A stretch of 64,000 nucleotides of DNA from positions 124,001 to 188,000 of the forward strand of contig NZ_SNYN01000001.1 in the NCBI RefSeq assembly GCF_004363075.1, given 5' to 3'. The position numbers and the translations under genes are program-made. How positions within the stretch are numbered: the first letter of the stretch is position 1; the number at the start of each line of letters is the position of its first letter. The notes beneath the pieces are model-generated. The model saw only the letters and a list, made by a program, of their open reading frames with translations, was not told the origin of the DNA and did not search any database. This DNA is from Actinorugispora endophytica (GTDB lineage: Bacteria; Actinomycetota; Actinomycetes; Streptosporangiales; Streptosporangiaceae). Below are positions 48,998 to 51,742 of this stretch, one piece after another.

Positions 48998-50377
48998 CTA
49001 GCTCACGCGGCGCAGCAGGTGGCCGTCCTCGATCTGCGGGCGGCTCGCCTCGGCGAACGCCTGGCGCGGGTCGCTCATCTCGGGCATCGACGCGAAGTCG
49101 CGGCGCAGGAAGAACCCCAGCGTCCAGTCCGAGAGGACCCGGAACTTGCGGTTGAAGGTGGGCACCGCGAGCAGGTGGTACGAGCGGTGCGCCAGCCAGG
49201 CCAGGCGGCCGGTCAGCTTGATCCGGCCGAACAGCTGGGCGGCGCCCTTGTTCATGCCGAGTCCCGCGACCGCGCCCAGGTTCTTGTGGCGGTAGGGCTT
49301 GAGCTCCTTGCCACGCAGGGTCGCGATGACGTTGTCGGCCAGGATCGGGGCCTGGCGGACCGCGTTCTGGGCGTTGGGCGGGTAGTAGCCGCCGTTGCCG
49401 TCGGGCACCTGGGCGTTGTCGCCGCCCGCGAAGGCGTTGTCCACGCCGTTCACGGTGAGGTACTCGCTGGTGTCCACGTGGCCCTTGGGGCCCAGCGGCA
49501 GGTCCGAGGCCTGGACGACGGGGCTCGGCTTGACGCCGGCGGTCCACACCAGGGTCCCGGCGTCGAACTCGGTGCCGTCGCTGAGCTTGATCCGCTGGTC
49601 GACGGCCGACTCCAGGAAGGTCGACAGGCGCACGTCGATGCCGCGCAGGCGCAGCTGGTTGAGCGCCTTGCCCCCGACCTCGGGGCCCACCTCGGGCAGG
49701 ATCTTGTCCGCGGCCTCGATGAGGTAGAAGTGCAGGTCGTCGATGCCGATCGACGGGTAGATCCGGGTGGCGTCGCGGGCGAGGTCCTCCAGCTCCGCGA
49801 TGGCCTCGGCGCCCGCGAACCCGCCGCCGACGAACACGAAGTTCAGCGCCTTGCGGCGGACCTCGGGGTCGTCGGTGGAGTCGGCGATGTTGAGCTGCTC
49901 CAGCACGTGGTTGCGCAGGTAGGCGGCTTCCTCGACGGTCTTGATGCCGATGCCGTGCTCGGCCAGGCCCGGGATGGGCAGGGTCCGCGAGACGGCTCCG
50001 GCGGCCACGACGATGTGGTCGTAGGCGATGTCGCGGACCTCGCCCTGGTTCGACTCGAACTCGACCTTGCGGCCGGTGTGGTCGATGCGGATGACGCGGC
50101 CGTTGAGGACGCGGACCCGGTTCAGGACCTTGCGCAGCGGGACGACGACGTTGCGCGGGGAGATGCTGCCCGCGGCCGTCTCGGGCAGGAACGGCTGGTA
50201 GGTCATGTAGGAGTTGGGGTCGACGACCGTGATGCGGGCCTCACCGGCGCCCAGCTTCTTCTCCAGCCGCATCGCCGTGTACATCCCCAGGTACCCACCG
50301 CCGACGATGAGTACGTGCGGGATCTCCGTCTCGTCGCCACCGCCGTGCACCAGCCGGTAGTTCCTGCTCTCGGTCAT
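48998..50377 (-). CDS. ndh: Type II NADH dehydrogenase (NDH-2)
   Basis: A 459-residue flavoenzyme that passes electrons from NADH to menaquinone without pumping protons. Two dinucleotide-binding folds are seen: FAD-binding HVLIVGGGYLGMYTAMRLE (about 21-39) and NADH-binding NFVFVGGGFAGAEAIAELED (about 172-191); also LVWTAGVKPSPV and AFAGGDNAQVPDG. The C-terminal 50 residues contain an amphipathic segment (WTLGFFLRRDFASMPEM) that can dock on the membrane. ATG 50377 (MTESRNYRLVHGG) is preferred to a GTG 8 codons upstream. A Rex-type operator lies about 150 bp upstream, fitting control by the NADH/NAD ratio. Confidence 0.93.
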   Translation of the reverse strand: MTESRNYRLVHGGGDETEIPHVLIVGGGYLGMYTAMRLEKKLGAGEARITVVDPNSYMTYQPFLPETAAGSISPRNVVVPLRKVLNRVRVLNGRVIRIDHTGRKVEFESNQGEVRDIAYDHIVVAAGAVSRTLPIPGLAEHGIGIKTVEEAAYLRNHVLEQLNIADSTDDPEVRRKALNFVFVGGGFAGAEAIAELEDLARDATRIYPSIGIDDLHFYLIEAADKILPEVGPEVGGKALNQLRLRGIDVRLSTFLESAVDQRIKLSDGTEFDAGTLVWTAGVKPSPVVQASDLPLGPKGHVDTSEYLTVNGVDNAFAGGDNAQVPDGNGGYYPPNAQNAVRQAPILADNVIATLRGKELKPYRHKNLGAVAGLGMNKGAAQLFGRIKLTGRLAWLAHRSYHLLAVPTFNRKFRVLSDWTLGFFLRRDFASMPEMSDPRQAFAEASRPQIEDGHLLRRVS

Positions 50378-50529
50378 CGCAATTCCGCCCTTAGCTTCCA
50401 CGTCCCGCCCCCACGATAGGAAGCGAAGATCGGTAAGTCTTCTTTGACTGACATCTCTGCTTTCTGATTCCCACAGAAAGGACGCGTCTTTTTAACGCTT
50501 GCTCGAGATCTCGCCCATCCCGCGCCTGC

Positions 50530-50547
50530 TTGTGCATTCTTTCACAA
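50530..50547. promoter_or_regulatory. Rex-type redox operator upstream of ndh
   Basis: TTGTGCATTCTTTCACAA matches the Rex consensus TTGTGAA-N4-TTCACAA in all but one defined position. Rex represses respiratory genes at low NADH/NAD, and ndh is a known type of Rex target in actinobacteria. Located about 150 bp upstream of the ndh start within a relatively AT-rich stretch, so it probably overlaps the promoter. Confidence 0.75.
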
Positions 50548-50601
50548 GCCCCCTCCGTCAAGGAAGGCACAGGTCAGAAAGGTTTAGACCAGGATAAACC
50601 C

Positions 50602-50626
50602 GACCTGGGACAGGTTCCACCAGGTC
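50602..50626. repeat. GACCTGG...CCAGGTC inverted repeat in the ndh-ppx spacer
   Basis: A 7-bp inverted repeat (50602-50608 and 50620-50626) with an 11-nt centre, flanked by one more CAGGTC at 50571-50576. Spacing and half-site form suggest a regulatory binding site; no known regulator is recognised. Confidence 0.4.
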
Positions 50627-50677
50627 AGAGGCCATGTGAACGAGTTAACGCACCCGTAACAACGTGATGGGGTTCAC

Positions 50678-50700
50678 TCGGCCCCCCAATCGGGGGCCGA
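50678..50700 (-). terminator. Hairpin after the ppx gene
   Basis: Perfect 9-bp stem TCGGCCCCC (50678-50686) with its complement (50692-50700) about 50 bp beyond the Ppx/GppA stop on the minus strand. Confidence 0.6.
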
Positions 50701-50752
50701 ATCCCCTGGACCTGAGGCGCCGGATCCGCTACCGCCCCCGGGGCGGCGGTCC

Positions 50753-51742
50753 CTACTCCGCTCCCAGGGCCAGGCTCCAGGCGATCCCGTCCAGGATGTC
50801 GTGCTCGCTGGCGACGAACTCCGACGCCCCCGTGCGGGCCAGCACCCGCTCCAGGATGAGCGCGCCCGCGCCGATCACGTCCACCCGGCCCGGGTGCATG
50901 ACGCCGATCGCCTCGCGCCGCTCGCGCGGCATGGCCAGCAGGTCCGCGGTGATCTCGCCCAGCCTCCCGGCCGACACCCGGGAGTGGTGGATCCGGTCGG
51001 GGTCGTACCCGGGCAGGTCCAGCGAGATCCCGGCCACCGTCGTGGCGGTCCCCGCCACGCACACCACCGTCGCGGCCTCGCCCAGCGGGACGGCCGCCGC
51101 GGCCTCGTCCAGCGCGGCCTCGATGTCGGCGGTGGCCGCCGCGATCTCCTCCGCCGTAGGCGGGTCCGACCTCAGGTGCCGCTCCGTCATCCGCACGCAG
51201 CCGATGTCCACCGACCGGGCCGCGCGCACCGCGCCGTCCCCGGAGTCGTCGGCGAAGCCCAGCACGAACTCGGTGGAGCCGCCGCCGATGTCCACCACCA
51301 GGTAGGGGCGCGCCATGCCCGCGGCCGGGTCCTCGGCCGCCTCCAGCTCGGCCGTCGCGCCGACGAAGGAGAGCTCCGCCTCCTGGTCGCCGCTGATCAC
51401 CTCGGGCTCCACGCCGATGATCGCGCGCACGCCGTCGACGAACTCGGCGCGGTTGGCGGCGTCCCGGGTGGCGCTGGTGGCGACCATGCGCACCGACTCG
51501 GGACCGAACTCCACGCCGTTGGCCTTCATCCGCTCCGCGTAGTCGGCCAGCGCGGCGAAGGTGCGCTCCAGCGCCTCGGGCGCGAACACGCCGGTGCGGT
51601 CCACCCCCTGGCCGAGCCGGACCACCTCCATGCGGCGCTCGATGTCCAGCATCTGGACGTCGTCACCGTCCACGGGGATCAGCCCGGCCAGCAGCAGCCG
51701 GATGGAATTGGTTCCGCAGTCGATAGCCGCGACCGTGTTCAC
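50753..51742 (-). CDS. Exopolyphosphatase/pppGpp phosphohydrolase (Ppx/GppA)
   Basis: A 329-residue enzyme of the ASKHA fold that shortens polyphosphate or dephosphorylates pppGpp. The N-terminal phosphate loop is NTVAAIDCGTNSIRLLLAG, the second VARPYLVVDIGGGSTEFVLG-like segment PYLVVDIGGGSTEFVLGFAD, and VMHPGRVDVIGAGALIL closes the nucleotide site. The protein is the short (one-domain) form, as for mycobacterial Rv1026. GTG 51742 overlaps the DUF501 stop by four bases, so the genes are coupled. Part of the conserved eno-divIC-DUF501-ppx block. Confidence 0.93.
   Translation of the reverse strand: MNTVAAIDCGTNSIRLLLAGLIPVDGDDVQMLDIERRMEVVRLGQGVDRTGVFAPEALERTFAALADYAERMKANGVEFGPESVRMVATSATRDAANRAEFVDGVRAIIGVEPEVISGDQEAELSFVGATAELEAAEDPAAGMARPYLVVDIGGGSTEFVLGFADDSGDGAVRAARSVDIGCVRMTERHLRSDPPTAEEIAAATADIEAALDEAAAAVPLGEAATVVCVAGTATTVAGISLDLPGYDPDRIHHSRVSAGRLGEITADLLAMPRERREAIGVMHPGRVDVIGAGALILERVLARTGASEFVASEHDILDGIAWSLALGAE

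Follow-up and report, generated by a model that had tools for sequence, protein, structure and literature searches.

A predicted Rex operator upstream of ndh and a paired operator layout in relatives

An 18-bp palindrome upstream of ndh is, judging from its sequence and conservation, very probably a genuine Rex operator (ROP) through which ndh would be controlled by negative feedback. Rex control of ndh is of an already known kind, and the interesting part is the paired layout of operators in relatives. The following features belong to the 64-kb window, that is, the whole stretch of DNA that was analysed.

Positions 48998 to 50377, minus strand: ndh, encoding a type II NADH dehydrogenase of 459 amino acids (Pyr_redox_2), with its ATG at 50377.
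Positions 50530 to 50547, minus strand: predicted Rex operator proximal to ndh, which reads TTGTGAAAGAATGCACAA in the direction of ndh and was identified by top matrix score and conservation.
Positions 50753 to 51742, minus strand: Ppx/GppA phosphatase gene, upstream of ndh on the same strand.

The ATG at 50377 is the likely start of ndh and is preceded by a GGGCGG stretch. No NCBIfam model scored above its cut-off for the ndh product, and the naming of the gene therefore rests on similarities, namely, to Pyr_redox_2 and to solved relatives. Among solved structures, it matched best to 5na1, 5na4, and the 4nwz group, which are entries of the NADH dehydrogenase type and NDH-2 enzymes.

On the forward strand, the 18-mer reads TTGTGCATTCTTTCACAA, with a single mismatch to the Rex consensus TTGTGAANNNNTTCACAA, and it is enclosed by a conserved 22-mer, GCTTGTGAAAGAATGCACAAGC (50528 to 50549). 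The sequence, coordinates, and one-position difference given in the preliminary description were correct, and the distance of about 150 bp that it named corresponds to a gap of 152 bp between operator and start codon. In the window, the 18-mer is the sole match with one mismatch; 2 matches with up to two mismatches were found against 0.21 expected, and at least two such matches occurred in 2 of 100 shuffles. The wrongly spaced pattern TTGTG-N7-CACAA gave no match. With a Rex matrix built from seven published Streptomyces avermitilis sites, the 18-mer ranked first of all window positions at 26.4 bits, a score that is not wholly independent of the matrix, which contains the S. avermitilis ndh2 site; the runner-up, at 50634, reached 15.9 bits. 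None of 2,000 base-shuffled versions of the 440-bp upstream region reached 26.4 bits, the highest scoring 19.8.

A search for related loci yielded 80 ndh loci, of which 38, whose genomes bear titles such as Thermobifida, Nocardiopsis, and Streptomonospora, were aligned. The other 42 were distant (47 to 56% identity) and were left out of the alignments; none of these 42 had a site in the upstream window searched, which was partly coding. The comparison of ndh upstream regions that had been proposed earlier showed that the proximal site is kept in all 38 Nocardiopsaceae-type loci while its flanks change. With the window included, 36 of 39 loci share exactly the same 18-mer, and the remaining 3 differ at two centre positions only. 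Parsimony on a tree of ndh coding DNA required 4 steps over the whole 18 bp, and the flanks averaged 8.6 steps per site at -30 to -3 and 11.3 at +20 to +29. The leader between operator and ATG varies in length from 42 to 158 bp among loci. One of the aligned records, L018, has an ndh locus of the Nocardiopsis type under the title Glycomyces fuscus and is possibly mislabelled.

Conservation extends to the four N positions at the centre of the proximal operator, which took 0, 0, 3, and 1 steps, versus 12, 7, 0, and 8 at the centre of the distal operator described below. Such a frozen centre suggests that the core promoter and the proximal operator overlap. For the window's group, the simplest reading of the frozen centre would be a promoter element inside the operator, for which there is the following candidate.

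Positions 50536 to 50544, minus strand: candidate extended -10 promoter element, TGA-AAGAAT on the ndh strand, within the operator at its nearly invariant centre.

A promoter scan of positions 50360 to 50760 found no standard sigma-70 promoter, which counts against this overlap. The combination of the -35-like TTGACG with AAGAAT as -10 was rejected, since this pairing would need a 14-bp spacer. In other groups, sequences were inspected by eye. Three regions of family f19 have a single perfect operator, with TACTCT, TAGGCT, or TAGGGT following 16 to 17 bp after TTGTGA, which to go by its position is placed as though serving as a -35 element. In five regions of the window's own family (f1), TANGCT overlaps the start of the operator. 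The operator thus seems to be located on the core promoter, in registers that differ among groups. An invariant centre would also be explained if the 22-mer had another role, as a 5' leader RNA hairpin (GCUUGUG-loop-CACAAGC) or as the site of another protein. We regard this as unlikely: Rfam gave no match in positions 50000 to 51000, the near invariance of the 22-mer leaves no compensatory changes by which a hairpin might be tested, and a core promoter element within the operator accounts for the centre more simply.

Reading the 18-mer as a Rex operator presupposes a Rex protein, the absence of which had been named as refuting. The genome encodes one, with a single match to the DNA-binding domain genome-wide. 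Against an NCBIfam Rex equivalog, for which the cut-off is 226, the protein scores 383 bits, and its alignment with solved Rex proteins covers RKDLSHLGSYGTRGVGY (RKDLS...GSYGTRGVGY region). In the solved proteins, a recognition helix and a glycine-rich wing contact the DNA there (PMC8836258).

Exact TTGTGN8CACAA occurs at 3 places in the 5.25-Mb genome (reversed control, 0): one lies before ndh, one before rex, and one before a FAD reductase gene that has nuoABCD behind it. The similar operator in front of rex is TTGTGAAAGCGCGCACAA, and hemA comes after rex. Six genome sites have up to two mismatches. Five of them are located in front of ndh, of rex-hemA, of nuo, of a WhiB gene (1 mismatch to the Rex consensus), and of atpI-atpB (2 mismatches). 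The last of these lies before an open reading frame like that of ATP synthase protein I, named by eye and without a Pfam match, and then atpB, which has one. The sixth site (contig 23; 2 mismatches; 12.5 bits) fits no known target and counts against the Rex reading. With up to three mismatches, 25 places were found, versus 12 with the reversed control, and weak genome matches are therefore often due to chance. Surroundings were viewed for the ndh, rex, nuo, WhiB, atpI, and contig 23 sites and for L102, L103, L105, and L107 among these 25; no obvious respiratory gene was seen around the latter four. Such chance matches count in favour of the view that the 18-mer itself is a functionless chance palindrome, a probability that we consider negligible in light of its conservation in all 38 loci of close relatives and its first rank in the window.

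Published EMSA results for S. avermitilis show that Rex binds five promoters, those of rex, nuoA1, wblE, atpI, and ndh2, out of eleven reported targets (PMC5355995). Only five of the 11 published targets were matched here, which counts against the Rex reading, and the other six, cydABCD and hppA among them, lay outside the search. The expectation in the preliminary description that Rex acts here as in other actinobacteria, on respiratory genes and ndh, is supported, in that five of the six genome sites precede published S. avermitilis Rex targets, including ndh.

The CRP/FNR consensus, TGTGA-N6-TCACA, has the same core and spacing as the Rex site. A regulator of this family might bind the site instead of or alongside Rex, since the 18-mer matches the CRP/FNR core with identical spacing and one mismatch, the genome encodes 5 CRP-type DNA-binding domains above the Pfam cut-off (4 of them strong), and a similar consensus has been proposed for ArcR in Staphylococcus aureus (PMC3544828, in the text available). 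We consider this quite improbable, however, because the genome has 5 exact TGTGA-N6-TCACA places, to which the window site does not belong and which coincide with the Rex set at nuo alone, because both the outer TT..AA and the genes concerned agree with Rex, and because Rex bound the similar ndh2 site of S. avermitilis (PMC5355995).

The Rex site before ndh2 of S. avermitilis (SAV3529), TTGTGAAGGGGCGCACGA, which was the one bound in EMSA (PMC5355995), resembles that of the window in its position before ndh and in having a perfect TTGTGAA half together with GCAC in the other half. Both sites share the same off-consensus G, but the window site has 1 mismatch to the consensus and the S. avermitilis site 3. 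Among ten loci of family f18, which we call Streptomyces-like because its ndh2 operator is identical, TTGTGAAGGGGCGCACGA precedes ndh in 7, and the other 3 have the consensus T at that position. All 10 of these loci contain a second site 247 to 285 bp further upstream, which is better than the first in 9 and equal in 1. The accessible part of the S. avermitilis study names one Rex site for ndh2 (PMC5355995). Because this first site lies at 119 nt, a second one of the kind suggested by the Streptomyces-like loci would escape the 350-bp limit of that search (PMC5355995).

The paired layout in the window's relatives involves two further features.

Positions 50634 to 50651, minus strand: remnant of a distal Rex operator, which reads GCGTTAACTCGTTCACAT in the direction of ndh and, measured from start to start, is 104 bp upstream of the proximal one.
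Positions 50614 to 50627, minus strand: conserved element, which reads TGACCTGGTGGAAC (consensus, TGACCTGSNNAAAC) and lies downstream of the distal operator with a gap of 6 bp.

The distal site, which the preliminary description overlooked, is the second-best matrix position in the 64 kb. In the window, it has kept the right half TTCACAT and lost the left half, with 4 mismatches in all. Sought at spacings of 98 to 110 bp, a second operator is present in all 38 relatives, and in the 39 loci including the window it starts 103 to 105 bp upstream of the proximal one (104 bp in 19, 105 bp in 19, and 103 bp in 1). Distal mismatches number 0 in 28 loci, 1 in 5, 2 in 3, and 3 in 1; the window and L006 have 4 each. 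The stretch between the operators is nearly constant in length, yet part of it varies as much as the flanks do (13 steps per site, without gaps). Close to the distal operator, positions 50662 to 50679 (ACGTGATGGGGTTCACTC) rank fourth in the window for the Rex matrix at 10.2 bits, probably by chance.

The preliminary description had noted GACCTGG/CCAGGTC repeats in the spacer that might bind a second regulator. Both arms are present, at 50602 to 50608 and 50620 to 50626, and the conserved element includes one of them. The idea of a second regulator is partly borne out in that TGACCTG is strongly conserved, being found in 39 of 39 loci (36 exact and 3 with one change at the fourth letter) with AAAC-like letters after it, and keeping the 6-bp gap to the distal operator in 38 of 39. 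The repeat as a pair, however, is mostly not conserved, and CAGGT as a second arm occurs in only 8 of 39 loci, 18 to 24 bases after the start of TGACCTG. It is likely from this pattern that a second factor acts on the region, though not on the inverted repeat as such. By eye, TGACCTGSNNAAAC fits neither a -35 element nor an ECF promoter nor a GlnR-type box.

Strict operator pairs were found in 12 of 394 genomes at spacings of 98 to 110 bp and in 5 of 120 at 124 to 154 bp, and all 17 precede an ndh. Other genera of the window's family have operators 132 to 153 bp apart, with 134 to 151 bp in four f1 regions, which, together with the 247 to 285 bp of the ten f18 loci, led us to reject helical phasing as a general rule. 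Of 77 ndh-like places in other genomes, 40 were read for sites. At least one site with up to three mismatches was found in 20 of these upstream regions, with two or more in 16; the other 20, one of them incomplete, are without a site at this threshold, which counts against the Rex reading. Rex was found in all 33 genomes checked, including those whose ndh shows no operator, and the presence of Rex therefore does not predict control of ndh.

Two Rex operators before one gene are also known from S. aureus ldh1, where they lie at -160 and -218 relative to the start codon and give two shifted bands in EMSA (PMC3544828). The gene and the spacing differ from those described here. Among the titles that our literature searches listed, none dealt with paired or cooperative Rex operators of actinomycete ndh genes, and none was a Rex study in this group of organisms.

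At low NADH, Rex would occupy the operator and block ndh transcription; with rising NADH, Rex would be released and ndh made, and its product would oxidise NADH. In relatives, the distal operator, some ten helical turns away on the upstream side, may be occupied by a second Rex dimer. Control in this genome probably rests mainly on the proximal site, because only half of the distal site remains. What the sequences show is the site and its conservation, the rex gene, the matching sites elsewhere in the genome, and the second operator of relatives, and from these we infer binding, repression, promoter overlap, and any cooperation between the two sites. The yjlC-ndh loop of Bacillus subtilis and its Rex were reportedly described by Gyan in 2006. 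In that loop, Rex represses ndh and the product oxidises NADH (PMC5355995), which is the same logic in a phylum different from that of the window.

Control of this kind would tie an NADH-oxidising enzyme to an NADH sensor in the Nocardiopsaceae-type group. More tentatively, and with considerable doubt, we suggest that ndh of the Nocardiopsaceae might be a two-operator Rex switch, in which the distal operator and a promoter-overlapping proximal operator, ten helical turns apart, cooperate by a loop or by cooperative binding with a factor on TGACCTGSNNAAAC between them, that double Rex operators might be characteristic of the way in which several actinomycete families control ndh, and that the window's lineage might be losing the distal one. 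If this were true, the loss in the window's lineage would be a natural test of the role of the distal operator. With the conserved two-operator layout, a comparison of species with intact and with decayed distal sites would allow cooperation of Rex at a respiratory promoter to be tested.

Further repeats were observed around the proximal operator. About 30 bp upstream of it, GAAGGT-N12-ACCTTC-like repeats occur in most Nocardiopsis-type loci (L009 to L033, L035 to L038, and L040), and at the same place the window and L002 to L008 have GGTCTAAACC-like letters, which are presumably DasR-like. Between the operator and ndh, positions 50460 to 50480 form a perfect 7-bp inverted repeat, CTTTCTG-ATTCCCA-CAGAAAG.
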